Source: Antedon mediterranea
Lineage: Eukaryota; Echinodermata; Crinoidea; Comatulida; Antedonidae
Direction of reading: 5' to 3'
DNA length: 64,000 nucleotides
Assembly: GCF_964355755.1 (NCBI RefSeq)
Contig: NC_092680.1
Span: 1,589,001-1,653,000, forward strand
In this document: positions 9,195-50,249 of the stretch, one piece after another
Numbering within the stretch: position 1 is the first letter of the stretch
Layout: every line of letters begins with the position of its first letter
The notes under the pieces: generated by a model
Told to the model about the DNA's origin: nothing
What the model saw: only the letters and a program-made list of their open reading frames with translations
Database searches by the model: none
Program-made: the position numbers and the translations under genes

Positions 9195-12100
9195 ATGGAA
9201 CTACAATGTTTAAAAACGATCTTCTTCTTGGCCATTTTTGGTGAGTATAAACCGTTAATTAATTATGATGGGTAACTGTGTAGACCTACTTATCTATTGG
9301 TTAATTGTGTTAGTTAGTTTGATTGTAGTCTGTTACCAATCGTTTGAGTTCGGTGACAGCACTTAGCAACAACTTGTCTTCATGATTTAGTTCGGGTTGT
9401 GGATACAAGCCAACAATACACTGAATGTACTGCCTTTCGCACATTAATGTGATTAAATACTAATAGTTACTGTAGGCCTACATAGACATTTGTTAAGTAT
9501 TTCAGTACATTAAGTAGGAGTTCCTAACTTTTTTTTGTTATTCCATAACACAGTACGCACTCTTGGGAAAATTACAGGACATTTATTTTCCGTACGGTGA
9601 TACTCAAAAAGGCAAATGATCTTTTAATACCAACTAATATAATATGTAGAGACAAAACGTTGATTAAAATGATGCACTTTTAAATAATAAAACCAGATAG
9701 ATTAAGGAAGATTACTGCTATTTGATTATCCCATTCATGATGTTTATTATATATTTCTTTATTTTTTATTTAACCAGGTTAACAATAACCAGGTTAACAA
9801 CTCTTATTGACAGTGACTCTCAACATATATTTATCTTTAAAATGCCTGTCCTCTCCTAATAAATGTATGAAGGTAAACACCACTGCAAAGTCACAAAACA
9901 AAACAGATACTAAAAGGCTGATGATTATTTAAATTTAAATTAAATTATTAATTAAAATGTAGGACATTTTTAATGAAGAAAACTGACCTTTATTAACAAT
10001 TTACTGTATAACATTAAGCTCTGTCAACACTATCAAACTTTATATGAATGCGAAGTGCCCATAGACATGATGTCATATCACTACCATAGTTAGGCATATA
10101 ACTACCATATTTGGACACATCACACTTTTTTTGTCAACTAGTTTGATAGTGTAGACAGAGCTTTACATAATATGTAAATTAACGTCATCTTTCGGTAACT
10201 ACCCAAGTTAGGCCTACAGATGAATCAAAATGGCAACCGAATGTTTTTAATTGGTCTCAAACGTATGTAGACGAATAATTCTAAATTTAGCCTTGTTAAT
10301 TATCAATAAGGCTTCGTAACATTACTCAACAGCATCAACGCACAGCATTATTTACAAAAACAACTGTGTATGGTTGAAATCAAGAGAACACAGTCGTCGT
10401 ATTTCTAACAATCTCCGTACTTGTTGTGATGTTTGTCAGGATATGCCTTTAACTACACGCGCTCCAAGTTATCACTATTCCTCAGGATACCAAAATTAGA
10501 AACTTCCGTCTTCAAAGTAGGCCTATTTGAAAAGAAATTTTTGTAAGTTATTTTGAGTTTATGGGGGTGGGAAAAACAGGCATTAAAATATATGTCAAAA
10601 AAGCTAAAAACGCCGAGGCCTCTAGAGTTGGAGGGCCACTTACGGTTCCTAAACCAGGGGCTGCGTTACTCCACTGCTGTAAACCAAAACTACGTCATCA
10701 GAATTTCTCCACATGTGCATCTAACTGCAACGGGGTCTTGTACCCGATAAGGGGCAGAGCGTGTGTGTTTCCCTATTTCAATCGTCAACATTGATTATTC
10801 ATAATTTTGATAAAGTAACTTTCTCATGAGAACCTAATATGTGTTACTAATTAAGCTGTCGCAGAAACTTATGAGCATGCGCAGAGTAAAACTGGATGGA
10901 TACAAATGTACTTAAAGTTATGAATATCAGTTAATTTCTTCTTTTTAAATAATTACAAAACCTGTTTAAGACAAATGCCATAATTTGGTTCGGAAACAGA
11001 AAAGGAGAGTCATACATAAGAATCAGTGCTCTATCAGTTATTGAACTCAGACTTGTTTCATTTTATTAAGAGTAGGCCTATGCATATTAGCGGATGTGCT
11101 ATATAAAACTGAAAACAAAACACACATTCTAAAACCAGAGGATCATTCTTTACCAATATTTTTTTCTAACGGTTACCGTTTTATAATAAGGCTCTTTTTT
11201 AACAAGTGAACTGTTCTTGAGATTTTATCTTTTTATCAAGTTTTTCAATTTGGCAAAGTTAGATAATATTATCATAGTCACATAATGGTAAATGTGTATG
11301 TTTTTACATCTCTGTTTGTGATGTTCCGTTAAAATGTGTATCTCTGACTTAAATAAACCCTTGATTCTATAACGTAAATGTAAATGGAGGAATAACCTGC
11401 AACTTGCAGCCTGGCGATACGTTTCTATTAGTTTTACATTTATTGTCTTGGAAATTGTAATACTATAGTTCGATAAGAGTACCAGAAGGAAAGCACGTAC
11501 AAAATGCTTAGAAAAAATTTGGAAACCATGTATTGACCGTCTCGTTAAATTCATTCATCTTCAAAGAGAAGTCATCATATCATTTGTTACCCAATAATCA
11601 CAAGCAGGTTTACCAATTGTGGTATTCACATTTACAGCACTATTATCGTGATCGTTGATTTCCTATGTTCTACTTTAAAAGGTGCGTCAAATTAGTACCG
11701 TACACAAGAAGGCAACTTATTGAACAAAGAAAGATATTCTGTAGCTGAAAGAAGACTTATTAGTATCACTATATCCACCAAGATGCTACGCCTACTACAT
11801 TTTCCGTTTTATTTCGTATCATTGACAGAATCTTAATACTCTTAATGCTTATATTTCTGTTTCATGTTCGTTCGACCCAGTTTTTGTCATCTGCGACACT
11901 TCATATCAAAATACTGCATTAACATTTCATTTTTAGTTTTGCCTTATTGGACAGCTCGTAATAGGATAACGTCTCGGCAACGGAAATATGAAAATATTCA
12001 TTACATAATATTACAACAATCACCCAACCACAGATACATACAATGAAACAATTCTGAATGAAGCCAGAACATAGCATTAAGAAAGCTTGGCTACCAATCT

Positions 12101-14714
12101 CAGGGTCCAACAATCCACAGTACCACAGTGTACCAGGAAAACAGTAAACTACATTTACCAGACGAGTTTAGCCTCGTCCTAAAGTCGTTCGTGCATATAG
12201 AAATCATATTATGCACGTCATATTACTGTATAATTTAATAAAGTCAGGGGTGTATCTGGGGCTGGAAGTGGATTACAGGGTACGAAACAGAGGCTCACAT
12301 GGAGGGTGCGAAAGACATTTTGAAAAAAAAGGGCTACTAGGTCTCCGGAAATTGCAATATGAAACGAAATAATTTAAGTAAACATAATCAGCTCTATGGT
12401 GAGTGTGGCCAAAGTGCGAGCCAGTAAAGCATGCAATGCATGAAATTCATACCGGCAATTCCACAGAACAAAATTAATAAAATATAAACAGCGTGAGCCG
12501 GCCACACACAAAAGCCTAATCGATAATTTGAATTGTACAATTCATAAAACAATTACAATAAATCACCTACGATAATTATGGTGATAGGTTTACACGGGTG
12601 TTCTTAAAATTGAGGGCGCCAAACATACAATTTACGAGATCGAATACAGGTTGACAAAAAAATTAGATAAAAAAAAGATGTTAAATGTGCTCTCCCTGCC
12701 TCAGCACTAAGGCCCTGCCACAGCCTTTTGGGGTCGTTTCCAGCACATCGCCAGATGCATTGATGTTGTCGCCTCATGATGTGTGGTGGAAAGGAGGACG
12801 TATAATTCTGTGAACCCCAAACACAGTGGTCGCATACCTTTAACTCTATTCCACCGACCAGCATGGGGATCGAACCCACGACATACGTGTTGTCAAACTA
12901 ACTCGTCATTTTGATTGTAAACAGGGTAATACAAGCTTCGTTTCCACATGATGACGGTCATGAATATGCATATTTTTGACATAGCGATGAATTACGTAAT
13001 GTGAAGCACAAATAAATAGACTATTGTCACCTGTTCAGTCATCACTGTATGACGTAACGGGTAATGCTCAGTTTCGAGTACTCGCAGCTTGGGTTCCAAT
13101 CTCTTGTTTTTTTTAATGGAAAATAAATATTGTTTTTTTTAAAAGAGAGATATTTAGAGGGTTAAGAGAGATATTCAAGTTAATTTAAGAAATTAAATAG
13201 GTAAGCTATCTTTGCGATTTCTACCGTCATAAATGCATAGTCAACTGTCATGTATTCACAGTATTCGCTATATAGGGGATGCGTCTTGTCACCGTAAGCC
13301 TTCTGACACAGACTTCCATCAATTTGAGGGATGCGAAATTCATTAAAAAGGGTGGGTATCTATTTTCTGACGTTGCGTTTCTTGGAACATTTTATTTGGA
13401 ACAAAATTCAGAAAATCAATCGCAATATAAATAAGGCTAAACATAAATTGGCTAATGTGAAAGAAAGATTATTAAATTATATTTCTGTACTTCAACTTAT
13501 TAAAATTGATTATAATATAAATTGAGAATTCGTCGGCAAAATTATAAATGCTTTATGGTAGATGTTTTAGTTCTAAATTGAATTCCCGTTGTATGATATA
13601 TCAACTATCATTGATAGTATTATAATGTCACCGTACGTCATAATTACATCATAACAGTCATAATTTCCTTTTTTTTTAGAGCAAGTCCATAGATCGTAAT
13701 TACGTGCTGACAGAGCTTGTCATAACTTAAGCTTGGTTCCCACTAGAACGCAGTGGGGGGAACCGACGACCAACAAAGCTGCAAAAATCGCATGTTTGAT
13801 TTCACGCAAACGGCGGGCAAACACAATTATTAGAATAGAAGTTTGTTACGTTGCGTAGATTGCGTTACGTTGCATCGCTAGTGGGAACCAAACTTTACCA
13901 TCCATCCATCGTATCGTGATTGGCTCAAATTACTTGCGACGCGCTTACGCCTTGTTCTGTGGAAAACAATGGATGGATGTCACGATATTGTAAACAACAT
14001 TTTTTTAAATACTAAAGATTAAAAAAAGATATGTTTTCTTTTCTGTTAATTTTAGGAATAAGCCACTGGAATGTCCTAATACTAGTCAATGCCGGCATCA
14101 TACCACACAGACTACCATCAGGACAAATCAACGAAAACTTAAATTATAAACAACGGTATTCGGAAAGTGATAGTGGAGAATCAAAGACTTCCAAATCTAA
14201 TGTACGAACAAATATCCCAGATGCTGCAGCAGAGAAATATCCACAATTTAATCCAAACGGTACAGACGAACGGAGAGAAGAACGGAGAGACGATAGCCGA
14301 TCAGGTGGCCGAACCGGTGGTGGCACAGATTCATTCTATACGACCGGGTATCCCACTTATACAAGGTTAGGTAGACCAGTCACATGGGAACCGCCACTAC
14401 CGACGACAAAAATGCCACCACCTCCTCTACCACCTCAACCTGGAACGACAGTTCCCCACCAACCTCGCGTAGGTGGAAACAATCCAAAAAGACCTAGGCC
14501 TACAATAATTGTTGGAAACATGCCTGCACAGATTAAAGGTCATAATTCCAGACAAGAATCGGTGGATTCCAGCATAAACGGTCAAACAGAGTCAAGTATA
14601 GGACTCGTAGCTGGAGTTTTTGTCGGAATCTTTCTAATTGTTGGAGTGTTGACTGTGTTTAATATCCAATGTGTTAAATCACGATTTCGACAATTTCAAC
14701 ATTTACAACTATAG
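9195..14714 (+). CDS. Gene A: predicted type I single-pass membrane protein, 234 aa (2 exons)
   Basis: Exons are 9195-9240 and 14056-14714, joined across a 4.8 kb phase-1 intron (donor G|GTGAGT, acceptor TTTTAG). Exon 1 gives MELQCLKTIFFLAIF, the hydrophobic start of a signal peptide; exon 2 completes it (through about VNAG) and carries the rest. The ectodomain starts polar and Ser-rich (ESDSGES), has a charged stretch (ERREERRDDSR), one N-glycosylation sequon (NGT), then a Gly/Thr and Pro-rich part (PPPPLPPQPG). A membrane helix spans about residues 196-219 (GLVAGVFVGIFLIVGVLTVF), followed by a short basic tail of about 15 residues. The exon layout matches genes B-F, so I treat it as a divergent paralogue. 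It is the least acidic member. A polyadenylation signal AATAAA occurs at 15323. No known family domain was recognised; function unknown. Confidence 0.72.
10015..10164. mobile_element. MITE, 'AAGCTCTGTCTACACTATCAAA' family, copy 1
   Basis: About 150 bp bounded by inverted repeats AAGCTCTGTCAACACTATC and GATAGTGTAGACAGAGCTT, with TA at the ends. It lies in gene A intron 1. The interior includes GACATGATGTCATATCACTACC, seen in the sister copies. Confidence 0.8.
12600..12900 (-). repeat. tRNA-derived SINE-like element
   Basis: On the minus strand there is a clear B-box-like GGGTTCGATCCCC near 12872-12860, preceded by tRNA-like sequence and followed by a ~200 bp body that ends near an A-rich stretch (12655-12680). 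It differs in body from the AGAGAGATA-tailed SINE family. The 91-codon open frame on this strand is inside the repeat and not supported as a gene. Confidence 0.4.
12990..13175 (+). repeat. tRNA-like SINE copy 2
   Basis: It shares AATAGACTATTGTCA, GTAACGGGTA, ATGCTC..GTTTCGAGTACTC and AGCTTGGGTTC with the reverse complement of 19185-19320, and the tail AGAGATATTTAGAGGGTTA with 8650-8800. It lies in gene A intron 1. Confidence 0.5.
13729..13898. mobile_element. MITE, 'AAGCTTGGTTCCCACTAG' family, copy 2
   Basis: Starts AAGCTTGGTTCCCACTAGA and ends CTAGTGGGAACCAAACTTTA, with TTGCGTTACGTTGCATCG just inside the right arm. It lies about 160 bp upstream of gene A exon 2. Confidence 0.75.
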
Positions 14715-17700: not shown

Positions 17701-18361
17701 TGTCTGGAACAGTTTCGAGGCAGCTTATTTTGTTTCTATTTTTGTTTTAATTGTTTTTCTTTCTTGCTTTATAATACCACATTTCATTTCCTATGTTTAC
17801 ATTTGTTTTCATTGAAGATTCGACTCATAAAAAATGGAAAGTGACGGCAACATTTTTAGTCGCGTTTAAACACGACTCTACAGTTCACTATGTCGGTCGG
17901 TTGGTCGGTCGGTAAACAATAAGTCAAATTTGAGCACGCGACTGCAGCCATATATATGGCCTTGTTCCATTGTATCTAACTTTGAATTGGCATAGCTTTG
18001 AGGGTGCTATATTCTTTTGAAATTATTCAATGATAAAATCAGAACCTGCGGCCTACACAGATTAGGTAATTAGTGACAATTTCCATGTGACGGTGATCGT
18101 TTCAATTTTAATAGTCCTAATCGTCTTGACAATCAAGTGGGAGTGACGATTTAAAAAGTTTTGGTGATAGATTGCTCAGTGATGCGTGACTTTGAACTTT
18201 GAACTCGAAGAGAATTGTATTAGTAAGACAAGTACACCGACGACCGCATATTATCTGAAGACTCGTTGAATTTCCCCTCTTTTAATTTTCCTGTAAAGTT
18301 CTTTGTTAAAAGTTTCACAAGGCTAAAATTATTTGAGAGATTTTTCAAAGTTTGCAAATTC
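14715..18361. other. Intergenic region between genes A and B
   Basis: The first ~650 bp is probably the gene A 3' UTR (AATAAA at 15323). The remainder is AT-rich with small chance frames (for example 15606-15857 minus, 16170-16406 plus). Towards its end lies one half of an inverted repeat pair that brackets gene B (17853-17967). The last few hundred bases are the presumed gene B promoter. Confidence 0.4.
17853..17967. repeat. Left half of an inverted repeat pair flanking gene B
   Basis: A block running from TTTTAGTCGCGTTTAAACACGACTCTACAG through CACTATGTCGGTCGGTTGG to TATATGGCCTTGTT. Its reverse complement recurs at 21136-21264 with a longer (GGTC)n core. The two copies face each other across 3.2 kb and enclose all of gene B. 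Confidence 0.7.
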
Positions 18362-19916
18362 ATGATGCATTATTTCAAAACGTTACTACTCATCGGTCTG
18401 TTATGTTTTGGTAAGTGTCACATTTATTAATATTTTAAATCGTCTGACAAATTGTCTGGGTTTATATTATAATAGAATACCATATTCTTCTTTAAAGACT
18501 GTAAACTTCTGTCTCGTAATCCATTTTATTCATTTAGTTACTAATAATACTTTTAATAGATGTACATTCATCATCGAAAAAAGTTCACTTATAATGTTAC
18601 TATGTGGATTAGACGAGATAATGGTTCCATGTGTTGATTCGTCACTCCCTCTATGTTACAACAATAAGTTCATATTATTGATGTTAATTGAATGTCATTC
18701 GCTTTGTACTCATCGACAATTTCTATACCACGCCCCGACACTATCCCCCTCTGACGTCACAAGTGCTATGGTGAATATCTTTACGTTTCCTCATCTTCCG
18801 TTCCGATCGAAGTATTAATGTGCGAAATGGTGATTACGTTGACAGTTTAATTAAAACGCAACATTTAATTACAAAACTTCATTTTATAAAATTTATTTTA
18901 AAAAAGTGTATTAGATTAAACGTTATAGCTTGTAATTAATTTGACCTTCCTGTATTTGATAAGCATGTATAGTGACCTGTGATTGCGTTTACATCATTTA
19001 ATACTTTAGGCCTAACATCGGTTATGACTATTCATTGAAATACCGTTTTATATTATTACGTATTAAATTGTGTATATAAAGAACAAAATAGACGTAAAAA
19101 ACCATAAATGCATTTTTATACCATTTATGTATTTATTACGGTAGTAATCGCAAAGATAGAAAAACAATATTTCTTTTCATTAAAAAAAATATATAAAATT
19201 CGAACCCAAGCTGAAGCTTAGGAGTACTCGAAACAGAGCATTAGGCTACCCGTTACGACACAGTACATACTGAACATCTGACAATAGTCTATTTATACGT
19301 GCTTTAATTTTCTGTGGCTCTCGACACCTGTATTTTTTATGCTATAAATGTTATGTTTAGTGATTATGTGATAGTGATTATGTATGCATCATCACAATAT
19401 TTCAATTGGATTTTCAAATTATTTATTTACAAGATACAATTTTAATTTATAAATGCAATATAAGTTGATTGTAAATAACCCGAATTCAATCTTTATATAC
19501 TTAAATTATTTTTTCTTATATTTGTTTAAGCTTACACAAAGGCCCAATCAGAAATTGACTTCGAAAATACAAACCCGTCATCTTTGGTCGGCCTATCATC
19601 TTTATCTCAGTTAGAAGGCAACGAGGGCGACTCAGCTGAGAGTAGTGAAATCGAAAGCGAGAGTGAGGGTTCTGATGGCGGCGGGGACGCCCCTGAATCC
19701 AGTGCTACAAACATGGGCAATAATATCGAGGACACTAACACTTTAGCACCGCCCTCGGGGGACATTAATTATATGGGCACAATAGAAAGTACTACTTCAG
19801 TCGTTATAGGTGCTATCATCGCCGCTGTTGGCATCGTGTCGATAAGCGCCGCAGTTGCCGTATTTGTGATGGTTCAGCGGAGAAAACAAAGATTGGGAGA
19901 CGAAGAGGTCGAGTAA
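18362..19916 (+). CDS. Gene B: acidic type I single-pass membrane protein, 144 aa (2 exons)
   Basis: Exons are 18362-18410 and 19531-19916 with a 1.1 kb phase-1 intron (G|GTAAGT; acceptor TTGTTTAAG). Exon 1 gives MMHYFKTLLLIGLLCF; exon 2 adds AYTKA, so signal cleavage before the Gln at about residue 22 is likely. The short ectodomain is strongly acidic and Ser/Glu/Gly-rich (SAESSEIESESEGSDGGG), with many S-x-E motifs. A membrane helix follows at about residues 106-131 (Ala/Ile/Val-rich), then a 13-residue tail with a basic stop-transfer (QRRKQR) and an acidic end (DEEVE). Two in-frame ATGs (18362, 18365) are possible starts; this affects one residue. A polyadenylation signal is at 20211. Size and composition resemble sea urchin P16-type proteins; this is inferred, not aligned. 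Confidence 0.8.
18411..19530 (+). other. Intron 1 of gene B
   Basis: Contains an open frame (to 18818) that is an unspliced read-through of exon 1 sequence in another frame, and a tRNA-like SINE copy at 19185-19320 on the minus strand. Confidence 0.6.
19185..19320 (-). repeat. tRNA-like SINE copy 3
   Basis: On the minus strand: AATAGACTATTGTCAG, GTAACGGGTAGCCTAATGCT, TTTCGAGTACTCCTAAG, then AGCTTGGGTTCGAATTTTAT. This is the most tRNA-like copy of the three and lies in gene B intron 1. Confidence 0.55.
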
Positions 19917-20210
19917 ATAAATGAATTTGAGTACATCACCATGTTGACATGATAGGAACACAAAGTTCATTTTGTTTCTTAATTGACAATATTGATAAAT
20001 GTATGTATCAATTTCACGATGAGTCATAGCCTATAAGAAGTTTCACATTAACTTGATGGATTGATCTATTTATCTAACTGAATTTTCTTATTGGTCATAT
20101 GGAGTTGTAAGAGAATAATAACGTTCTTTTTTGGCCAAAATTTTTACAAATTTATACAGTCAATATTGAATATTTAAACGACAGAGCAAAACAAAAATAG
20201 TTACAAACGT

Positions 20211-20216
20211 AATAAA
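20211..20216 (+). terminator. Polyadenylation signal of gene B
   Basis: AATAAA about 295 bp after the gene B stop codon, followed by a T-rich stretch. There is also an AATAAA overlapping the stop region at 19916-19921, so a very short 3' UTR is an alternative. Confidence 0.4.
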
Positions 20217-20423
20217 GAAAAAACCTTATTTTTCTGGAATTTATTTTATAGTAAAATGTTGAAAATTAAAAAGAAATGTTTGTATCATCTTAATCATAAA
20301 GTTTGGTTTTATTTCACCGAATATTAGAGTAATATAATGACGTATAGTGATGCTTGGGTTTAAAAGGTGATGTATGCACATTATTTAGTAAATTATACCT
20401 TTACGAAATACGCAAAACGTTTT

Positions 20424-27525: not shown

Positions 27526-30500
27526 ATGAAGATCGCAATCAACTTTCTGCTTCTGGCACTATGCGGTATGTATCATTGTCAAGTTAGTTGCATGCTATGC
27601 TAGCCTGAACGAAGTACACTTGTACTTTACCATATGCAAACACATGTTTTGCAAGTGTCACGCACGTGTTTAGGCCTACTAGTGATAAATAATTAAAAAA
27701 ATATATTTAAATTGTATGGTTTTAGATTTAACTTAGGACTCGTTGAAAACGCCAACTAATAGCCATGCATCTAATTAGTCACGTGTTAACATAACACATT
27801 TTCAACAATGGCATGGTATAGACTTATTGCATATTATGAGATATGTTTGTTAAATTAATAATTTCTTTAATTTATTTTTTGATTAGTTTAAATTAATTGA
27901 TAATCATGTCTTAATTTTGACGTCTAGATTGATAGGGAGTTTGTTGTAATATTGGATTGATTTGAATTTATTTTTTTAAATGAGAGTACATGCAGTAGGC
28001 CTATGTAGGCCTATATATTATGCTGTAAAAATATCATCTGTACAATTTATTTTAAAGAATGATTTTGCAAGAATCAATTATAGTTTACAAGTCCATGACA
28101 ATGTGTCAACATTGTAGATTTTTCTATTTTTTAAATTCTGCCATTCAACCTCAATATCGTGTAGTACTATTTATGGAATGGCAAATCGCCAGCACTTGCT
28201 ACCGGTACTAACAGCTGTTTTATCCGAGTATCCTACCTACTATATATAGTACTTGTTAGCTCTAATAATTATATACCTTTATCGACATTTATAGAAACAC
28301 ATTAGCACATTTGTATTTATGTTTTAATCGTTTGCTTTAGAATTCCATTTTTATCAATATCAAGTTAACAAATTATATTAAAACAAACTTAGTTGAAATG
28401 TGAAAATGAGAACTGGTAGAAGTTATATAAATTTTTTATTTTACATTAAATAAATTGTTTCAAAAGGATTAAAGATAAACAAAAAACGAATTAAAATGTC
28501 GAATTTTGATAGTGTTGTATGAGATTTAACGTTTTGTTACATAAAATAAATCATAAGCAATACATTGATACGGTTAACACATCAAATAGAAACGAATGTT
28601 AAAATTAACTACATTCCTTTTCCAGTCATGTTATATGAAATTAATACATTATTATTTAGTAGTGAAAATTTTAATTTGGTTCACTATATTATATTTGTTA
28701 GGATTTATTCTGCTGATCCAACCATGGAGGTAATTATTTTTACTTCCATGATCTAATAAACAATATTTTAATAGTTTAAGCATGAAGGTAAAAATAATGG
28801 TTTAAGTATTTATTGACAAAAAAGAGAATCCCCACTCCTCTACCCCCTTCAGCATATTATAAAATATGAGCATGTTGTAACTGCGATAACTTTTACAGCA
28901 TACAGTACAAAATATATAACATTGGTATACTGGGCAAGCTACAACTGTAGGAGTATTAACTTAAAATTACCCGCTGTTTCAGTAATATATAAATAGCAAT
29001 CGAAAAGCAAAAATAAGTTTAAATGTAAAAGTTACTGCTTGTGTGTTTTTTCTTTCTTGTTGCTGAATCACCCTCGGATTACGAGGTATTAGACGATAGG
29101 GGTAGCCTAGTCAGTGTAGTTATCAATATCAGGTCGCATAATAACAATGAGTCATAATTAATATCTATAATTTATTATCAATTACACACTAATATTATGC
29201 CTCATGGGTGTATTTGGTCGATAATTGAATAGTAAAATTTCAATTTATAAGATATAGAGTGATTTTAGTAGCATATCCTAGAAATAAATAGCCTACAGGA
29301 CTGTGGACGATGGAATAAAAACAATAAGAAATCACAATGTATTTACACTTGTAAATACGTAAGCATTCTTGCTTTTTTGTTAAACATTTAGGAATAGTAT
29401 TGTATTTAGTTTATAGGTAAACGTACAATGTGATGGGTATACTGCTTCCCTACGCGTAAATATTAACAAAGGTTTAATATGTTTGGTGATTTTGGATTTT
29501 TACGATTTTTGTTATTGTTTTTTATTATTTTTATATCTTTAAATGTTAACTCTCTCACAAATTGTATGTAACAATAAAAGTGAGATACGCCCAAATATGG
29601 TAGTGATATGATATATATATGGGTACATCATATTTTTTTGTTACATAAAGTTTGATAGTGTAGACATAGTTTATCTTTCTTGCATTTAGCCAACAGGGTT
29701 ATTTTTATTCTGGAATGTCCTGATGTCAGTCAGTACAAGTCTATAATATATCCTCCAGTGGATTATTTATTTGTTCCATAATCTGGAATCAAGTTCCTAC
29801 AGGTCACTATGTTTTAATTTTAGCTCCTACTCCATCGAAAGTGCCTACGTCATATTCAACAACACTAATTGTCAGGGGTGTTTGGAGGTCATTCAAAAAT
29901 CATTTTTTTAAGTTTATGCCTTTTTGTTGTGTAATAAATTATATATTTGTCATGGGGAATCTCATTACTGTTTGGTGTGCGAGAGCTTATATCTCATGCA
30001 ATAGAAAAATATGCAAGATGATGAGGCTGTGTTTGCTCACTAACTTATTTTCTTTCTCGTTACTGCAATTTACACGGCAGGAAAACACCTTATTTATATC
30101 ATTAAACGACAATAAAAACACCAGATACCATACACTATAATATGGTCACTATAATTATATATTGAAAATATATCAAGTTAAATACTCACAGTATCGGCGA
30201 CAATTCACATCTTAAAAAACAAAACGATATATAAGGACTTACTAAAATTCTTCTGCCGAAACAACGCTCTTACGCAGCCTATTCAATATAAACCTTCACT
30301 TGATATGTAAATTAAATACGCGCGACCAATAGCAATGGAATGCAACATAACACGCCACCAATCATGCCTTTATAACAGAAACTTCTAAAAACTTTCCGGT
30401 CCATCACATATTGCAAAATGGTCGTCATAATCTCAATTAGAATATAATTTTCAAATTATTGGCTAATACAATATAAAAAATAATTTTGATCTAATAATAA

Positions 30501-31037
30501 ATGATGAATTAAGTTGTTATGTTTTTTCTTTCAGTATTTTCCGTACGGGTTTCAACTCAACCAACACCAACTGTTGTCCCTGATGTATCTGAATTTGAAT
30601 CTGAGAGTGAGCTTTCTGAAGCTGGCGAGAACGCCGCAGAAGCTGCAGAAGAAGGCAATTTACCAATAGGTGCAACATCCCAACCAGATCCCGATTCAGA
30701 CAGCAGCTCAAGCGAGGAAGAAGAGGTAGACGTAACAGACCCAAATGCAGTAGATGGTACAGATGCTCCTGACGCAGAGGATACCACTCCAGCACCCTTT
30801 GGAGGACTAGCTGGCGCAGGAGGAGGAGCCGCTGGAAATAACTTCAATGTCAACGGCAATGCGGTAGAGGCTGATGCAGGCGATTCTTCTGGAGCTGTTC
30901 TCGGAATGAAGGCTAGTGATCAAGCTGTAAGAGCTGGTGGATTCAGTGCCACGGCAGTTGGTGTAGCTACAACTCTTGGAATCGTCGGTGCTCTGGCGGC
31001 AGCTGCAGGAATTATTCTGTACATAAGAAAGAAGTAA
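27526..31037 (+). CDS. Gene C: acidic type I single-pass membrane protein, 180 aa, P16-like in architecture (2 exons)
   Basis: Exons are 27526-27565 and 30535-31037, with a 3 kb phase-1 intron (G|GTATGT; acceptor TTTCTTTCAG). Exon 1 encodes MKIAINFLLLALC and exon 2 continues VFSVRVSTQ, so cleavage before Gln at about residue 22-23 is likely. The mature ectodomain is very acidic (FESESELSEAGE; SDSSSSEEEEVDVTD), with Ala/Gly-rich linkers (GGLAGAGGGAAG) and no Cys. A long Ala/Gly/Ile helix at about 154-177 is the membrane segment, leaving only RKK as cytoplasmic tail. At 180 aa this is close to the ~170 aa of sea urchin P16, which has the same order: signal, acidic Ser/Gly-rich ectodomain, one helix, tiny tail. 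A polyadenylation signal AATAAA at 31418 is followed by a GT-rich stretch. Confidence 0.82.
27566..30534 (+). other. Intron 1 of gene C
   Basis: AT-rich; contains a partial MITE (29581-29672) and several short chance frames (28565-28756, 29841-30140) with no signal or domain features. Confidence 0.6.
29581..29672. mobile_element. Truncated MITE, 'AAGCTCTGTCTACACTATCAAA' family, copy 2
   Basis: Holds CCCAAATATGGTAGTGATATG and the right end ACATAAAGTTTGATAGTGTAGACATAGTTT. The left arm is missing. Confidence 0.7.
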
Positions 31038-33266: not shown

Positions 33267-34018
33267 TGCTATAATTCGCAGATTTAAAAACCATAACATA
33301 AATGTTCTTATAATTTGTTTGTGTTAATTTAACTTTATGCAATAGTTGAAAGATCGTTAAGCTACTTATACAATGAGCACGGGGTTTCTGTGTGAGCCGT
33401 GGAAATTTGGGCTACGTTTTTTTTTTTCGAACACGATCAAAAGTTAAAAATTGATGATGCGCTAAGCATTGGTCTGTCATAATAACACAGGTGAAATTAT
33501 ATATTATTATAATACCTATATCATCAACCTACACACGCAACTACGACGTCAGCTAAAAGTTTCTGCGTGTCCGAAACCTCGATTTTGTGAGTCAACCATC
33601 ATCCCACAAGTTCTTAATAAACTTAAAATGTTTACTAAAACGCCCGCTATATATACACATCGAAAATACGCTTTTGTATTTTTGTAAACTCACAATTATC
33701 CGCAAAAAAAACCACTCATTTATAATTAACCCCGGGAGGATGTTGAATAGACCTAATACTTCTTCGCGAGGTCACCGGGATGAGGCCTAATATCTCAACT
33801 TTTATTTTCAGATTAAATTTATTGTAATTATGGAATGAACTAATATCGGCTCAATATGGATAACAAACTATAGTACATTAACAAAAAATAATGTCTGGAT
33901 ACCAACCATTTATACTGTAGTCCTAATGGCGTTGATAATAATACTATTATTAATTGTTAATATATTTAGATCAGAAAGAAAATAATCCAACAATGATATA
34001 TCTGGTAATATACTGTAT

Positions 34019-34174
34019 AAAGCTCTGTCTACATTATCAAACTAGTTTGACAACAAATAGTGTGAAGTTCTCTATGGTAGTGCTATGCCCAAATATGGTA
34101 GTAATATGACATCATCATGTCCATATATGGGCACATCACATTTGTTGTCACTTTTAATAATGTACTGTAGACAA
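34019..34174. mobile_element. MITE, 'AAGCTCTGTCTACACTATCAAA' family, copy 3
   Basis: Left end TAAAGCTCTGTCTACATTATC; interior ATGTCCATATATGGGCACATC; right end partly decayed (AATGTACTGTAGACAAGG). Confidence 0.75.
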
Positions 34175-34622: not shown

Positions 34623-36324
34623 ATGAAGTGGTTTCTGTATTTGGCGATTCTTGGACTAGTTTGTAAGTATAATAACTTGTTTTCTCATTTTATTTAAAGT
34701 GCAGTTTTGCGAAATTATCAATCAATTTGTATATTTTCTTTAAAATACGTATAGGCCTATTGGAAGAAAGTGTCATTTTTTTTAATGTACGGAAATTGAG
34801 AAAAAGTTCAATTTTGTTGACAATTTAAGTCCATTTCAGAACAATATAGATTAGTTATCAGTTATATTACAGACTCGTTTAGTGTTTGTAAATCTTACAA
34901 AATTGAAAACGTCATAAGAAATGGAAAAAGTGAATTTGAATTATAACGACTATACGGGATGCATGTTCATTAATAATATACTGTTTGTTATATTTCTTTG
35001 ATTATGTTTAAACAGTTATACAGTACCGTATGCTAATGAAACATTATTATTATAATATAGTTTGAAATGCAAATTTAGTTAAAACTTATAATTGTTACAT
35101 TGAATCAAAATGACCCAAATAATTACATGACTCAACAATACATGTAATTGTTTAATCAATAAGGTATTGAATGATTATATTAAGGATGTGTGTAAGACGC
35201 TTTAAATGTATGTGCTTATGTCAAAGGTCAAATACAAGATAACCAATAACAAACAATCTAACAAACGTGTAACAGTTAGTTATTTTATTTTTGTTTAAAA
35301 TAATATTTTGCTTATCATAATTTTTTACTAAAGATTATATTTTACCATAGTATCTATATATACTACTATATTTTTGGCCTGTGTACATTGATTTATTAAC
35401 CAGGTCTTGAGTGTAAAGTTTACTAAAGTATACTTTATTCAGGAAGATTAATGTTTACTTTGTTGATGTATTTTAATAGTTTAGAACATTAAATAAGAAT
35501 TATTTTTGTTTTCAGTAACGAGAATCGAAGGACAGTCTGAATTTGGTAATGAAGTAGATTATGAATCTGATCCTAATTCACCAGAAGAACAGGAAACACC
35601 AGAAGTAGAGTCGTCCGAACCCACCGAGCCTCCTGAGATGCAGGAGGCTGAATCTTCAGAGCCTTCAGAGCCTCCTGAGATGCAAGATGTTGAGTCTTCA
35701 GACCCCGCAGAGATAGTACCGCAAGATATACAACCATCTGAGAGTGATGGAACTTTTGAATCATCTGTGCCAGCTGGACAGGCAGTACAAAGTAGCTCAC
35801 AACTCGTCTTGGGTGGTGGTGGTGACGAAGAAAGTAATTCAGAAGAAGCGGGGGGACAAGGTGCAGCGATGAACAATGCCGAATTAGCTGGAGGTGATTC
35901 GTCACAAGAAGATGTTGGAGGAGGTGGTGTTGATGGAGGCGCCGGGCTTGGTGGCGTTCCCGTAGATTCAGAAGAAGTGACTAATGCAATAGGCAATGAA
36001 ATAGGCACCGAACCAATACCTACACAGCTCATTCAGAGTACAGTGGGATATATAGTTTCAACAGGAAGTCCTATCAGAGAGGCTACTTCAAACATAATTA
36101 ATCCTAACCGCGGAGACGCTTTCTTTGCTGATTTTGGACCACAGGAGGGTGCCAAGGACAGACAAGGAAGTGAGCCAGGAGACACTGAATCTGCAGCTTC
36201 TCCTCAAAAGATTGGACTGATTGTCGGAGCTACCACTGCTGGTACAGTAGCAGTTGCCGCAGGGTTAGCAATTGCTTATGTGAAATTGAAGGGAGCGGGT
36301 TCAGCTGCTGCCGGAGGCGTCTAA
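34623..36324 (+). CDS. Gene D: acidic Ser/Glu/Pro-rich type I membrane protein, 282 aa (2 exons)
   Basis: Exons are 34623-34662 and 35516-36324, with a 0.85 kb phase-1 intron (T|GTAAGT; acceptor TTTTCAG). Exon 1 encodes MKWFLYLAILGLV; exon 2 continues LTRIEGQ, so cleavage before Gln at about residue 20 is likely. The ectodomain opens with an acidic region holding an internal repeat: ESSEPTEPPEMQEA and ESSEPSEPPEMQDV, then ESSDPAE. After this come Gly/Glu-rich stretches (LGGGGDEESNSEEAGG) and a less biased middle part. A membrane helix lies at about 246-268 (GLIVGATTAGTVAVAAGLAIAYV), followed by a short Lys/Gly/Ala tail. S-x-E motifs are frequent. It is the largest of the acidic trio B, C, D and lies head-to-tail after C. 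Polyadenylation signals at 36388 and 36393. Confidence 0.85.
34663..35515 (+). other. Intron 1 of gene D
   Basis: AT-rich, no open frame or repeat recognised beyond one TAGGCCTA motif. Confidence 0.6.
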
Positions 36325-36387
36325 AACTATTGATTTTGTTTATTGACGTTCACTTGAAAATTATGAATTCATTTATTATTAGTTTAT

Positions 36388-38504: not shown

Positions 38505-38597
38505 CGATGGGCCATTCTTACTGTCACTTGTGATTGGTCAACTAACTTGTTTTGCGCCTACGTCGTTGCGTTGCGTCCAAGTGTGAACCCAGCTTTA
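38505..38597. mobile_element. Partial MITE, 'AAGCTTGGTTCCCACTAG' family, copy 4
   Basis: Only the right half is recognisable: CACTTGTGATTGGTCAACTA, GTCGTTGCGTTGCGTCCAAG, ending TGTGAACCCAGCTTTA. Confidence 0.6.
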
Positions 38598-38960: not shown

Positions 38961-41900
38961 TTACATAATTTGTGTGTAAACAGGGCCGAATTTTGTCCAT
39001 AGTAAGTATCCACCGCCAATAATAACAGAAAGTCCAATGGCAGCTGAAAACACAACGATTGTTATTGTTCCTGAAGATATTTTTTTATTGCCCACTTCTT
39101 GATCGTTCTCCTCTTCCAGAATTCTAGGAGTTGTCTGTTTTGGAAACATTATGTCCTTTTCATTGTTGTTATTATTATTGAAATTATTATTGAAATTATT
39201 ATTATTAACATTGTTAAATCTTCTACGTGTGACCACTACTGGTCTTGACGTTACATCAGTTCCTAAATATTCTTTACCAGTATTAGGTTGATCACTGCCG
39301 ATGTAAGGATTGTTAGGCGCGTTTCCAGCGCCTCCATTAGGTCTCTGTGCAACAGGAACTTCCATTCCAGGCCAACCAATGTTTGGTTTGGCTACGCCTG
39401 GGATACCATTAGCTCCATTGAAACCAGTACCAGCGTCACCTCTTCCTCGATCGCGGACTCCAGGGCCGCCACCTACTCCAGTACCACCACCTACTCCAGT
39501 ACCGCCACCGACACCCGTACCGCCACCTACTCCGGTGCCACCGCCTACTCCAGTGCCGCCGCCTACTTCAGTGCCGCCGCCTAATCCAGTACCTCCACCG
39601 ATTCCAGTACCGCCACCTACTCCAGTGCCGCCACCTACTCCAGTGCCGCCACCGAAACCATTACCACCACCTACTCCAGTGCCGCCACCGACTCCAGTGC
39701 CGCCACCTACTCCAGTGCCGCCACCTACTCCAGTGCCGCCACCTACTCCAGTGCCGCCACCTACTCCAGTGCCGCCACCTACTCCAGTGCCGCCGCCTAC
39801 TCCATTACCGCCGCCTACTCCAGTACCGCCACCGACTCCAGTACCGCCACCACCTACTCCAGTACCGCCACCTACTCCAGTACCACCACCGACTCCAGTA
39901 CCACCACCGCCTCCAGTACCTTCACTGACTCCGGTACCACCACCGACTCCGGTACCGCCGCCTACCCCAGCACCTCCACCTACCCCGGCACCTCCACCGA
40001 CTCCGGTACCGCCACCGAGTCCAGGGCCACTACCGCCTACACCAGTACCTCCTCCTCCACCAGTACCAACTACCCCTGGGCTTCCACCCCACACACTATT
40101 GCCGCCTCCAGTACCACCGCCTACACCAGCGCCTCCTCCGCCAACACCAGTACCACCTCCATTTCCTCCTGGACCACCTGCTCCACCATTTACACCAGTA
40201 CCGCCTCCACCACCTACACCAGTACCGCCTCCACCTACACCAGTACCGCCTCCACCTACGCCAGTACCGCCTCCACCTACACCAGTACCGCCTCCACCTA
40301 CTCCAGTACCGCCTCCACCTACGCCAGTACCGCCTCCACCTACGCCAGTACCGCCTCCACCTACGCCAGTACCGCCTCTACCTACGCCAGTACCGCCTCC
40401 ACCTAATCCAGTACCGCCTCCACCTACGCCAGTACCGCCTCTACCTACGCCAGTACCGACTCCACCTACGCCAGTACCGACTCCACCTACGCCAGTACCG
40501 CCTCCACCTACGCCAGTACCTCCTCCATCTACGCCAGTACCGACTCCAATTCCTGTCCCTCCGTGAAAGGCACTATCTATACTACTATATCCAGTAGGGC
40601 TATTTCCTTCAGCCATTCCAGGTGAATCTATGCCGTTTAATGGGGTTCCTGAGTCTTGTTCTGTTTCTGACGGTAATTCATTTTCTTGCATTACCAGATC
40701 TGATGATGAGTCCTCTCCAGAATTACTATCGGGTGGTCCTCCTGCCAGGTATGCGTTAACCTTTTTCTTGTAAATAACTTCTCCGTACAAGACACCTCTT
40801 TTGATCCTTAGTGCGTCATTACATTCTACGGCAACTGCAAAATAATGAAAATGTATTGAACAAAATTAGTATATGTTGTCCTATACTCAGTGTAGCTAAT
40901 AAACCTTTACATCTATTAAATGGGCGTGGGATTTTATAATGCGGTTATATTGATTCTATGATGATTGTCTATTATTGTAACCATTCTAAAGCATTGAGTC
41001 AATCCTGTCAAAAAAACGTGTGATAATGTGGAAGAAAAACGTGTGATAATGTGGAAGAAAAACGTGTGATAATGTGGAAGAATAACGTGTGATAATGTGG
41101 AAGAAAAACGTGTGATAATGTGGAAGAAAAACGTGTGATAATGTGGAAGAAAAACGTGTGATAATGTGGAAGAAAAACGTGTGATAATGTGGAAGAAAAA
41201 CGTGTGATAATGTGGAAGAAAAACGTGTGATAATGTGGAAGAATAACGTGTGTCTGATCTTATTGCACACACAATGACTGTGAACGAAACATAAAACATC
41301 TTCTTAAGCTCTGTTTACACTATCAATCTAATTTGACAAAAAAGTGTGATGTGCCCAAATATGGTAGTGATATGACATCATCATATCCATATATGGTCAC
41401 AACATTTTGTGTAACATAAAGTTTGATAGTGTAGACAGAGCTTACGGGTCTCTTCGTGTCGTACAGCTTCCGCCAAACGGCGCTCATTCGATCGTCTGTC
41501 CACAACGATAAACTACTCTACACCTAATACTCAATACTACTACTCATTGCCATGTAGAGTACCGTATGTTTGTATTCATGTGTTTGTTTCTCAAGATACA
41601 TAAAGTCGTACCTGTACGTTAGCCTATATGTAATATGATTACAGTTCAGATTATGATAAAATATGATAATTAAGTACAGGCTTGTATGATTCATTTCTGA
41701 ATCATATGACTTTAACAGTTCAATGGTTTTTCCAAAAAAGGAGAGATGTCCTTTATTCATTTCGTAATCTTCAATATAAGCATAATTTATATATAGATGT
41801 CGTTCTTCCTTTCTTATCGAATTACTGTGCCTGGCACGGAATTTATGTCAGATTTGGGGTCAATCCAATAAAGTTACAATGTATAATCCAACTTTATATC

Positions 41901-42281
41901 TTCCACCAAAGCATAAACCTCATTACTTTAACTATTATTTAAATTGTCATTGGCTTATTATTATTGATAATAGATTTTAAACATTTGAAATATTAGGATT
42001 TTTAAATAAGTAAAAATCATGTATAAATGTTACCAATAAATAAGATCACGTCTTAATCAATAAAAAGATAGACATGCACTAAATAAATATTTCTCTAATC
42101 TTAATATGAAACTTATCTTAATTGAAACTCATTGTTCCAAGGTAAAAGGATCAGGACTAAGATCGAACCAAGCACCTTGAAATTGATAACATATATTAAA
42201 CGCATATATATCGAATAACATTAAATTTTATAACTTACCGAGCAGTAAAAATGATAGTGTCCACAATATTTTCGACGCCAT
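38961..42281 (-). CDS. Gene E: Gly-rich repeat type I membrane protein, 638 aa (2 exons)
   Basis: Minus-strand exons are 42281-42239 and 40834-38961, phase-1 intron (CTCG|GTAAG; acceptor TTTTGCAG). Exon 1 gives MASKILWTLSFLLL; exon 2 adds VAVECND, completing a signal peptide. Next comes LRIKRGV, a furin-like R-x-K-R site, then an acidic Ser-rich stretch (SGEDSSSDLVMQENELPSE). About 360 residues follow of tandem GGGGTGVG heptads (N-terminal part) and GGTGVG hexads (C-terminal part). After these come an Asn-rich stretch (FNNNFNNNNNN), a charged stretch, a membrane helix at about 603-627 (TITIVVFSAAIGLSVIIGGG region) and an 11-residue tail. The repeats are 21- and 18-bp units in the DNA at 39465-40560. 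The plus strand is open over the repeats too, but lacks signal peptide, membrane helix and splice sites. A TATA-like TATATATTTA lies about 30 bp upstream of the ATG. Confidence 0.85.
39465..40560 (-). repeat. Coding minisatellite of gene E (18/21-bp units)
   Basis: On the plus strand the units read CCACCTACTCCAGTACCG (18 bp, roughly 39465-40020) and CCTCCACCTACGCCAGTACCG (21 bp, roughly 40200-40560), with a less regular stretch between. Most changes are synonymous (ACT/ACG/ACC, GTA/GTG), but unit number is likely to vary between alleles. The coding strand is strongly G-rich. Confidence 0.9.
41012..41252. repeat. 23-bp minisatellite, about 10.5 copies
   Basis: Unit AACGTGTGATAATGTGGAAGAAA repeated nearly without change; two units carry AATAACG instead of AAAAACG. 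The last partial unit runs into GTGTGTCTGATC. It lies in gene E intron 1. The units abut with no spacers and no CRISPR-like pattern. Confidence 0.95.
41305..41444. mobile_element. MITE, 'AAGCTCTGTCTACACTATCAAA' family, copy 4
   Basis: Complete copy of about 140 bp: TTAAGCTCTGTTTACACTATC at the left and GATAGTGTAGACAGAGCTTA at the right, interior CCCAAATATGGTAGTGATATGACATC. It lies in gene E intron 1, 50 bp from the minisatellite. Confidence 0.85.
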
Positions 42282-42307
42282 TTTCTTAAATCTGTGGCGT
42301 AGGTAAA

Positions 42308-42320
42308 TATATAGAAGGCA
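42308..42320 (-). promoter_or_regulatory. TATA-like element of gene E
   Basis: CTATATATTTACC on the minus strand, about 30-40 bp upstream of the start codon. If used, the 5' UTR would be very short. Confidence 0.35.
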
Positions 42321-45300: not shown

Positions 45301-47416
45301 ATGTCAACATGCTGTCCATAAATAGCCGCTTTCTCAAGTGATGCAAATGTTTTCTGGAGTCAGATCCTATAAAAAATATAGAAATATAAAAAGTATGTTA
45401 ATTTAAATATGTATTTGAAAGATGGGCTAGAGGTATAGGCCTACTGCATGATAAATTAGGCTGAAAAACCTAGCATGTGGTCCTAGGCCTACTACAAGGC
45501 CTAGCTTGATGTTTTTTATCCCATAAAACGTTTGAATTTAATACAAGTACAAAATCTAATTTATATAGAGTTGTAAAGTGTGGTACATTCAGTACATTAA
45601 TTAAAATAAATGAGAATGGGGCCTAATATTAATAAATAAACATGTAAAAAAATTGGCCTAAACGACTACGTGTGTATCTTATACGCATTGATTAACACGC
45701 AGTACGCGTTGGACCATCAAGGCTAGGCCCAGCTTCGCACAAACCACCGTTATACATGTGATTTGTTTACCTATTTCAATCGCCATTTAAAAAATACCTG
45801 AAAATATCAACATGCCCATTTTTTGTCAAACGAATATTTACATTACATAGTAACTTTTTATTTAGTCAATCGTTTACTCAAAAATTGAGGAATTTTTTTA
45901 TGGTCTCGTAAAAATGTACAATATTATTATTGATAAAAACCGTATAAAATCTAACAAAAAGAAGAGCAAATTCAATGATTACCTGACACGATCATAACTG
46001 CTATCCTGTTCCAAAAACCAAGTCACATGCTTCTTCAACCCTTGCTTTAATTATTCTCATGAATTATTCATAAGGAACTATAATTTAAGGCTTTCAATTG
46101 GTTAAAAGAGTTTAACCCTATTAAAATTTTAAATTCACATCATTTCCGGGTGATGTTGTCGCGCTTCGATGAATCTCAGAAATCACAAATGACCGCTAGA
46201 GGGCTCACTACTTTTTGTCTAGTCTAAATGAATGTGAGATGTGTTTAAAATTAATACAATATTATAAACAGCAAAGTTTAGTTTAGAATCCCGCAGCTGT
46301 CTAATTTCCTACGAAAGAGACGAGCGAATGACAGATTGCAATAGCAGAAACACGATTACATTGACATTTTGAATATGAAGAGGAATATAACAAAAATTGA
46401 TTGACCTTTGACACAAAAGACAAAGAGGAAAAAGAAAGTTCTAAAGATGAAAGTAGAGGCAAAAAAACCAAACACTTTTGAATCTAGTTTCGTTAGATGT
46501 TTATACTTTCTGCTGTTCTTTGATAAGGAAAGATGAGATAGATTATGAAGGTTCATACAATACAGCATTTGATCTATATACTTAAATAGTCCCTACATGT
46601 TTAATAGTTATGTAATTTTAAGTGACTTTTTTCATTTGCTGTTTCCTTACTTTTTTTTATTAAATTCTTATTTAAAAATATAAATGTGATGGTCCATTGA
46701 ATTCAGATGTTATATCTTTTTTTTAGATTAAAAAAAATGATACCATAATATCTGGAATAGAATTAAGTCTGTAATATCCTGCAAATGTTACTAATACTAC
46801 TTCCTTCATGGTACAATTTAGCCAATAATATCTTAATATGCAGTCTAGTCTAATAATATTAATGTAGGATGTACGCGTATTTGTAAACTTTCAAACTTTG
46901 TTCCGTAGTACAGTACACACTCACACACACATCATACCACGTGCGACACGTGTAAATATCCGTGAAACATTCATTCTATAAATACCCCCTTGAATAAATT
47001 TTTATTGATACGAATTATGAGCTGGACAATCATCAGCCATTATATAATTATATTATTAGAATACTAGGCCTACACTTGTAAAAATGTATTATTTTAAATC
47101 CACACAAACCCATTATGGCTCTGAATCCACAGTTGCAACAGCGCCCCCATCGTTCAAAACGTTAAAACTTTGAATAAAATCTTATACCATTCAACTATTA
47201 AAGTACAAGTATAGTTCTATGTTAAATTTGCATTATAGCAAATTATACAGTTTCTATAACTTATCTAAAGTAATTACACATTTTCTCTTATAATTATGCA
47301 AAATTGACCCTTTTTGAAGTTAAAAAGTCTTAATTGTTCCTCTCTCTATGTAAATAATTAGGTGTTCCGACATTAATGGATACCCCAAATACTAATTATA
47401 ATACATTCAGCCACGG

Positions 47417-47520
47417 GAAAGAGATATCTATCTGTTTGTGTTAGTCATTCCTCATTCATTATTTGATCCAGAAAGAGATATCTGTTTGTGTTAGTCATTC
47501 CTCATATCATTATTTGATCC
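47417..47520. repeat. Two-copy tandem repeat of ~50 bp
   Basis: GAAAGAGATATCT.. CTGTTTGTGTTAGTCATTCC.. ATTATTTGATCCA occurs twice in a row with small indels. Confidence 0.8.
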
Positions 47521-47740
47521 AAAAATGGTTAATGTTTCAATTGTCTTTTTAAAAGACTATCATGAAAATAATACCTTTCCAAACTTTATTTATTAGTCCA
47601 TTAATAAAAGCCCTTTGCTAATTCCAAGTGAATTCAGATTTCATTATGGACAATTTAATTGGTCGCCACCAATGTTTTAAATCATGGAAACATTGAACAA
47701 ATCATTGAAATGTTGATCTTATTTTAGAGATTTTAATATG

Positions 47741-48033
47741 ACTCTACGCAACGCAAAGACGTACGCGCAAGTCAAGTAATTTTAACAATCAAAAGTGGAT
47801 TATCCGTCGCTTGCGATTGGTTATATTCTTGTGGTGGTGCGGGTGCACGTTTCCCTTAAGCTTGGTTCTCATTTAGACGAATTGACATTATGGCCAACTC
47901 AATTCGGATGGTAACGCTTCGTTATTGGTCCAATTACTTGCGGCTGGTTGAGTTCTTTCTTTACGTCCAAGCGGGAACCAATACACTACGTCCAAGTTGG
48001 GAACCAATACGCTAAGTTGGGGAACCAAGCTTA
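47741..48033. mobile_element. MITE, 'AAGCTTGGTTCCCACTAG' family, copy 5 (compound)
   Basis: A compound, partly rearranged copy. CTACGCAACGCAAAGACGTA near 47741 and GCTTGCGATTGGTTAT near 47810 are followed by a second start (TTAAGCTTGGTTCTCATTTAG, 47858) and three tandem right ends (GGGAACCAA blocks) finishing AACCAAGCTTA at 48033. Confidence 0.65.
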
Positions 48034-48957
48034 AAATCGATTCTGTAAAGTCCATCAGTAGGAAGACGAAGCTCTTTTAGAGTTGAACTCGATACAAATT
48101 TAGGAGCAATTAACCATTCATAATTGTTGCTGACGCCTACACACAAAAATGACTACAACACAAATGCAACGTTAAAGGTTTCGTTTATTAATAAATGTAA
48201 CCTTGTTAGTAATAAAGTGTTTCTCTTTTTTGACCGATAGATGAATGACTAACACACTTTCAAATGTGAATACTAGTCATTCATTTCCTGCATCCTGCTC
48301 TACCATTTCCACTTTTGCCAACTTTGCAAAAACAACTTTTCAAAAATATAATCTTAATTAAAAAAAGATAAACGCAAATAATCATATTAGTAATCTAATG
48401 TCATAAAATAAGGCACAAAATCCAAAAATATTAACAGATTAAAATCAGAATAAATGTATTCTAGTAGTATGTTGATAGAGATTATTGCATATACAATAAT
48501 ATCTGCACGTTTTTAAATATTTAAACATTAATAAATTACTAGAGCATCATATAGCATAGTTTATTTATATAACATAACACAACATTACTGTTGTTATTTT
48601 ATAATAGATTATAGACAGAGTTAGTATTATATAATTATTTATTAGCTGTCTTAGATACAGTGCAGCGTCTTTCTTGGTTACAATTTCTAGCCAAATTGAA
48701 CAAAATATCTGTTCAATTAAACATCGCAAATAGTATGCTACGTTACTTTTATATTTTTATTATAAAATACATACTGTTTTTTAAAGTTTTTTTGGTTCGT
48801 ACTATAGTATTATAAAAACCATAAGTTATTAATGCCACAAGCGTTTAGCCTCAGCAAATAGGCCAGCCTATTTGTAAACTTAATAATTAGACTAAAACAG
48901 TATTTTAAATTAGATTTTCGTGAATAAGTTTATAAAGTTTTTAGAGTTGAAATTGAT

Positions 48958-50249
48958 CTATGCTGAAGTTGCTTGAACTTGCTCTCTGAGGGCCTGAGCT
49001 CTCTTTCGTCGTACAAGGAACACAAGCAGAACAGCAACACCGATTACCATTAAAATAGCTACAAAACTAATGGCGAATTGTCCACCGCCGCTCATTGACT
49101 GCTGTGCATTAGCTCCGTTTCCATTTCCATTAGGATTCATTGTGGTAGAGTCTTCGAATGAGTTATCATCGTCGGCGCTACTTGGCTGATACGTAGGATT
49201 TGGCAATGAAGTTGAACCGTAACCGTAGTCTGGTTGTCCAGCTCCTCCTACACCACCTTGGTTGTTGTTGAATCCACCACCGAATCCATTTCCAGTACCG
49301 GTTCCGACGCCACCAGCACCACCACCGGCACCATTAAACGGTGGTGTTGTAGTCATTATTGGAACAATTTGTCCATTTATGTATGCGCATAAGCATGCTG
49401 AAAATGGAAAGAAAGAACACATTAGTTATAATCATTATATTGCACGTTCAGCTATAAAATATGTTATAAAATATGTTTTAAAATTGGTGAATCGCCGCCG
49501 CGCGGTAGGATAGCATTGCTCGACCGAACCCCATCTTTAACTGAACTGAACTCCTCGGCCAACATAGGAGTGCCGAAGTTTCTCCTGGCATAGCATTCGT
49601 TTCAAGTGGGAAACGGCGGATTATTATTATTGAATAAAATGTTTATGTTTAAATGACCAATATTTTGTATTCGTTAAAATTGGAGAATTTGTTTGAAAGA
49701 TTCAACTCATTCGTTCAATATCGTTGACAGTTAATCTAATTAAAATATGCTCCCCAATTAACTAATTAACATTGATTACCTGTACATTGACATTTCTTTC
49801 AATAATTATTTAGGCCAACGTTGTTGTTGTAAACCACCTACATATTATGCGAACGGTAACTTATACGCCTACTAAGTACAATACAAAATGTTCATTATAC
49901 TGTTTGCTTTCAAATGGCGTTGCTTTAACTATTAATCATAAAAAAACGTTAAGCATTATAATAATCGATGTTAGTTTAAGGTCGATCAGTCTTTCTAGCA
50001 ATACACTAATATAATAATCACAAATATAAGCAATTTAGCAAGTTTTTTAGAAAGATTCACCTCTCAATTACACGTTTATTAATTTGCGTACAATTTAAAT
50101 AAGCATGCCGGTTCCTCCGGTGGTTATTATCTTGCTAAACTTTGTCAGGTTGTTTGTGGCGTTTTAGTCGTGGGTTTTTTCTTGGAAATACGGTAGAAAA
50201 AAAAATGGTACTTACCAAGAGTAATCGTGATGATCAATGTGTACTTCAT
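48958..50249 (-). CDS. Gene F: Gly/Asn-rich type I single-pass membrane protein, 157 aa (2 exons)
   Basis: Minus-strand exons are 50249-50216 and 49397-48958, phase-1 intron of 0.8 kb (CTTG|GTAAG; acceptor TTTTCAG). Exon 1 has only 34 nt, MKYTLIITITL; exon 2 adds ACLCAYINGQ, giving a signal peptide likely cleaved before that Gln. The ectodomain has a Thr/Pro start (IMTTTPPFNG), a Gly/Asn-rich core (GAGGGAGGVGTGTGNGFGGG), a Tyr/Ser/Pro part and an acidic DDDNSFEDS. The membrane helix is at about 119-140 (FAISFVAILMVIGVAVLLVF) and the tail is basic then polar (RRKRAQALREQ). The GVGTG motif and minus-strand placement make F the nearest relative of gene E. A CTATTTAACC TATA-like element lies about 90 bp upstream of the ATG. 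A separate frame that starts inside the intron is not needed once exon 1 is included. Confidence 0.85.
49398..50215 (-). other. Intron 1 of gene F
   Basis: Contains a GC-richer block (about 49490-49625) that looks like a dispersed repeat fragment, otherwise AT-rich with nothing recognised. Confidence 0.55.

Follow-up and report, generated by a model that had tools for sequence, protein, structure and literature searches.

A cluster of six two-exon genes for predicted single-pass membrane proteins in the crinoid Antedon mediterranea, a candidate counterpart of the echinoderm P16 locus

What do six neighbouring genes encode that share one odd exon design but have little sequence in common? This question is raised by a window of 64,000 nucleotides, the whole stretch of DNA analysed here, from the genome of the crinoid Antedon mediterranea (C11:1589001-1653000 in an assembly of 354 Mb and 18 contigs, in which the whole-genome searches were also performed). 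The cluster comprises six two-exon genes, A to F, at window positions 9195-50249, and all six gene models were reproduced. The features are listed below by window position, and their signal peptides, ectodomains, helices and tails are predictions from the translated exons.

9195..9240, plus strand: gene A, exon 1, 46 nt, signal-peptide start, donor GTGAGT
14056..14714, plus strand: gene A, long exon, Pro-rich basic ectodomain, one helix, 15-residue tail; joined protein 234 aa
18362..18410, plus strand: gene B, exon 1, 49 nt, donor GTAAGT
19531..19916, plus strand: gene B, long exon, acidic Ser/Glu-rich ectodomain, helix, 12-residue tail; 144 aa joined; acceptor AAG, not YAG
27526..27565, plus strand: gene C, exon 1, 40 nt, donor GTATGT
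30535..31037, plus strand: gene C, long exon, acidic ectodomain, helix, tail RKK; 180 aa joined
34623..34662, plus strand: gene D, exon 1, 40 nt, donor GTAAGT
35516..36324, plus strand: gene D, long exon, acidic ectodomain, helix, 14-residue tail; 282 aa joined
35601-35712, plus strand: gene D, 42-nt in-frame repeats inside the long exon
42239..42281, minus strand: gene E, exon 1, 43 nt, donor GTAAGT
38961..40834, minus strand: gene E, long exon, ectodomain with 46% Gly, GTGVGG(G) repeats (18/21-nt units), helix, 13-residue tail; 638 aa joined
50216..50249, minus strand: gene F, exon 1, 34 nt, donor GTAAGT
48958..49397, minus strand: gene F, long exon, Gly/Asn-rich ectodomain, helix, 16-residue tail; 157 aa joined

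Every gene begins with an ATG in a coding first exon of 34-49 nt, which is followed by a GT donor, an intron of 0.8-4.8 kb and one long terminal exon. The first exons encode 11-16 residues of the signal peptide each, and their length is 1 mod 3 in all six cases, so that the intron is always in phase 1. The original prediction had proposed just this arrangement, and it was recovered in full within the same coordinates. In three genes an in-frame ATG lies within the pyrimidine tract before the acceptor (A, 14031-14055; C, 30519-30534; F, just upstream of 49397 on the minus strand), and an unspliced, intron-retaining or alternative transcript of these genes could therefore also encode a signal-like hydrophobic N-terminus. 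The intron of gene E contains a 23-bp minisatellite (window 41012-41252, 10.5 copies, 98% match).

The predicted proteins are consistent in form and diverse in composition. Each long exon encodes one C-terminal hydrophobic helix with a 19-residue mean Kyte-Doolittle value of 1.9-3.1, and the predicted helix is followed by a tail of 3-16 residues in all six, which agrees with the earlier description of single-pass proteins with tiny tails. The ectodomains of B, C and D contain 20-22% Asp+Glu and at most 2% Lys+Arg, and their pI is 4.05, the lowest value that the calculation can give. In these three, phosphorylation motifs of the SxE and CK2 types are not enriched beyond composition. Gly makes up 46% of the ectodomain in E and 26% in F. 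The ectodomain of A, the odd one among the six, has 13% Pro and is basic with a pI of 9.6. The division into acidic (B, C, D), Gly-rich (E, F) and Pro-rich (A) types made in the original prediction is thus borne out, with the basic character of A in addition. A Pfam search with A, B, C, D and F (the repetitive E was left out) gave no match above the curated cut-off, and weak matches to Plasmodium_Vir, CEND1 and keratin were rejected as compositional. A silk-type (H-fibroin-like) reading, prompted by the tiny first exon and the one long exon, was also dropped because the organism is a crinoid and all six proteins have a C-terminal anchor.

Among known echinoderm systems, the P16 locus comes closest to this layout. 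Illies 2002 and Cheers & Ettensohn 2005 are said to describe P16 as a small, acidic, type I protein, and sea urchins also possess the P16-related genes p16rel1 and p16rel2. P16 is a transmembrane protein on the surface of skeletogenic cells (PMC13200730; PMC9811153). It has been described as a regulator of, or as essential for, skeletogenesis, and the protein encoded right beside it in S. purpuratus has 30% Gly and 10% Pro, is predicted to be disordered with a C-terminal TM helix, ranks with the most abundant matrix proteins of spicule and tooth, and also occurs in test and spine (PMC2909932; PMC2614417; PMC2527298). The P16 homologue of starfish is up-regulated by Alx1 (PMC4750990). High conservation across four classes was reported for the gene category that includes P16, a crinoid arm transcriptome being among the sources; this transcriptome yielded no spicule-matrix genes (PMC5831733). 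For another feather star, a sampling of the skeletal proteome already exists (PMC7351957).

The crinoid cluster resembles the P16 locus in several respects. B, C and D are each predicted to have a signal peptide, an acidic ectodomain, one C-terminal helix and a short tail (3-14 residues), and E, F and A provide Gly- or Pro-rich proteins with a C-terminal helix within the same 41 kb. Compared by description, Sp-P16, p16rel1 and p16rel2 are cell-surface transmembrane proteins in a gene neighbourhood, a make-up that B, C and D are predicted to have; unlike the sea urchin group, the crinoid cluster has six genes on both strands. The Gly/Pro-rich neighbour of Sp-P16, Sp-Hypp_2998/2999 (Glean3:18406/18407), is like E and F in being Gly-rich and disordered, with a C-terminal helix, and in standing beside an acidic transmembrane gene. 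Again by description, it is a protein of about 36 kDa with 30% Gly and 10% Pro, whereas E has 638 aa, 46% Gly and a GTGVGG repeat of its own. The skeletogenic proteins P58-A and P58-B of echinoderms are also type I transmembrane proteins, a character shared with our reading of the cluster (PMC13200730).

As for the host, it is an echinoderm, as for P16, namely a crinoid. The genome contains one match to a degenerate DNA pattern for the crinoid L-type SALMFamide GLRFHKGAPFG, followed by KR as the precursor requires; the peptide GLRFHKGAPF-amide was reported in all three crinoids examined (PMC9793003). It also contains one exact match to the kisspeptin-type stretch LRIKKKPK-QTSSCSHNACLRILPF of Antedon mediterranea, followed by GKR, and the context of this match, LRIKKKPKQTSSCSHNACLRILPFGKR, is identical to the published parts. 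The chance expectation for each neuropeptide pattern is about 1e-5, and the two matches together mark the genome as that of a crinoid close to Antedon. A search for COX1, intended for reading the mitochondrial code, gave no match in the assembly.

Because acidic and Gly-rich proteins lie side by side here, each on a single C-terminal helix, we read A-F as most likely a crinoid P16-type biomineralization cluster, the counterpart of the echinoderm P16 locus, a reading that we hold with moderate confidence. The regulatory sequences are less telling: Alx1-type palindromes occur at 0.31/kb in the cluster, 0.21/kb in the flanks and 0.11/kb in control DNA, so that the flanks are raised too, and comparison of the promoters of A-F for Alx1/Ets1 sites revealed no common site. 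Enriched phosphorylation motifs would have strengthened the P16-type reading, and their absence counts against it, as do the basic character of A, the scant similarity among the six members and the lack of relatives of A, B, C, D and F elsewhere in the genome.

The best surviving alternative, which we regard as rather unlikely, is that A-F are crinoid-specific mucin-like or adhesive surface proteins of an epidermal, podial or coelomocyte coat, unrelated to P16, with low-complexity ectodomains that serve as spacers or glue. A short disordered ectodomain on a single helix is common in surface-coat proteins, and it would fit this alternative that the members are unlike each other and show no significant Pfam similarity. 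However, Cys is absent from the ectodomains of A-F, N-glycosylation sites number at most one, and B, C and D are acidic where mucin repeats would be of the Ser/Thr/Pro type. Moreover, the neighbourhood of acidic and Gly-rich proteins that are anchored C-terminally is the pattern of the P16 locus.

Whether the six genes form one family is a separate matter. We used a design detector with three requirements: the first exon had to be hydrophobic and 28-70 nt long, whatever its phase; an acceptor with a pyrimidine tract had to follow within 6 kb; and the terminal exon had to stay open for at least 100 aa and to encode a helix close to its end. On the window it returned exactly genes A-F, with gene B once more through a nested ATG; the own acceptor of B is AAG, so the detector chose a downstream acceptor for this gene. 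It found no match in 80 kb of flanking DNA (40 kb per side), where the original prediction had suggested a search for further members past the window edges, nor in 160 kb of control DNA (contigs C3 and C7), nor in ten first-order Markov shuffles of the window, and since its thresholds were set after seeing the six genes, this is a comparison of density rather than a blind test.

The sequences themselves show little of such a relationship. Pairwise similarity of the N-terminal 35 residues and of the helix region was compared with segment-wise shuffles that keep the composition of each segment, and 4 of 30 tests gave p < 0.05, where one or two are expected by chance; the lowest p values were 0.010, for the C-terminal regions of B and C, and 0.014, for the N-terminal regions of B and D. 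When A, B, C, D and F were searched against the whole genome (E was left out because of its repeats), only self-matches and matches at chance level came up. Among proteins with signal peptides, phase 1 is the most frequent intron phase, and it is usual near cleavage sites (PMC1626468), so that phase 1 in six of six genes is weak evidence of common descent. The original prediction had inferred common descent from the shared exon logic; the shared design itself holds, and the "strong evidence" drawn from phase 1 was overstated. Duplication would still be the likeliest origin of A-F, judging from their tandem position and identical architecture. It is clearly less probable that the cluster is real without being one family, with independent short genes for secreted-membrane proteins gathered or selected in a shared chromatin domain and phase 1 being simply the usual phase of signal-peptide introns. 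The commonness of this phase and the lack of significance in most pairwise tests are in favour of such an origin, but against it stand six instances of the full design within 41 kb, compared with none in the 240 kb that flanks and control DNA make up together.

The long exons bear marks of translation. In each of the six, the period-3 power is higher than in any of 200 shuffles. The 52 repeat units of gene E, which were delimited on the DNA sequence, are all in one frame, and their 118 differences from the consensus fall 97 times on codon position 3, 13 times on position 1 and 8 times on position 2. In gene D, most differences among the three copies of the 42-nt repeat are at third positions (9 of 11 between the first two copies). 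This concentration of repeat substitutions at third codon positions argues that both genes are translated, and it is the trace of repeat growth under constraint at the protein level. As the longest ORF in shuffled windows averages 127 aa, ORF length alone gives no evidence for gene B. A prediction artefact, in which some long ORFs are driven by repeats and the small exons are chance matches, might be suspected from the E array, which is also open in other frames, from the ORFs of about 127 aa in shuffled windows and from the in-frame ATG that A, C and F have ahead of the acceptor, but it is very improbable in view of the codon-position bias within the E and D repeats, the period-3 signal in all six exons and the absence of design matches in shuffles and controls.

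The surroundings of the cluster offer position markers for a comparison of synteny in other echinoderms. To the left, beyond the window, are a gene for an AMP-binding enzyme on the minus strand (L004), which we read as ACSBG-like, and a glutaredoxin-like (DUF836) exon (L003:4415-4642). The right-hand side has PHAX (plus strand, from window position 62059 onwards), L005 with its repeated MAM domains, and L006, which encodes a protein kinase. The human relatives of the glutaredoxin-like exon and of PHAX both lie on 5q23, and the pair may therefore represent an old linkage.

Several other elements were observed in and around the window. A LINE-type endonuclease/reverse transcriptase-like open frame of 1007 aa is present at L003:470-3490 on the minus strand. 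An ORF at window 58188-58457 on the minus strand, starting with MKLTFAVLLCYCLSLASSDD, has a signal peptide, then a Gly/Ser-rich stretch and then a segment of heptad-like character, and would encode part of a secreted protein close outside the cluster. One and the same ORF (NIIYFCFSLYLFCGFQDHTDLYCYAKNKL...) occurs twice on the plus strand, at 55889-56095 and 57352-57582, about 1.46 kb apart, flanking an ORF at 56105-56434; the pair looks like the direct repeats of a small mobile element. A short MITE-like element with ends like AAGCTCTGTCTACACTATCAAACT and an inner GCCCAAATATGGTAGTGATATGA also recurs within the cluster, its copies being read by eye at these window positions:

about 10017-10165: copy of the MITE-like element
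about 29560-29670: copy of the MITE-like element
about 34017-34170: copy of the MITE-like element
about 41345-41445: copy of the MITE-like element

If A-F form a P16-type cluster, their products would probably be membrane-anchored, disordered mineralization proteins, which is a more specific reading than the original prediction of a retained display scaffold with quickly changing displayed sequences. The short signal peptide would send each protein to the secretory pathway and the one C-terminal helix would keep it anchored, so that the disordered ectodomain would be exposed to the calcite-forming space. Since there is almost no cytoplasmic part, the proteins are unlikely to signal alone. The acidic B, C and D (pI about 4) may serve to bind Ca2+ or to keep amorphous CaCO3 at the mineralizing cell's membrane, and the Gly-rich E and F and the Pro-rich A may form a flexible matrix that could be shed into the mineral. 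Shedding is proposed because the positional counterpart beside sea urchin P16 is found in skeletal matrices. Expression of A-F would be expected in skeletogenic cells. P58-A and P58-B, the other type I proteins mentioned above, are larger and not of low complexity.

Crinoids are the sister group of all other living echinoderms. It is a fair possibility, slightly short of an even one, that the P16-type locus is an ancient array, in which acidic and Gly/Pro-rich anchored mineralization proteins were already adjacent in the ancestor of crinoids and the other living echinoderms, with one two-exon design, freely diverging ectodomains, and orthology kept in design and position rather than in sequence. 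The cluster also provides six concrete, apparently single-copy candidates for membrane-bound mineralization in crinoids. Finally, if a P16-type cluster with the acidic and Gly-rich layout exists in crinoids, that part of the skeletal toolkit would predate the split of the five living classes and would be traceable by position and gene design where sequence fails.
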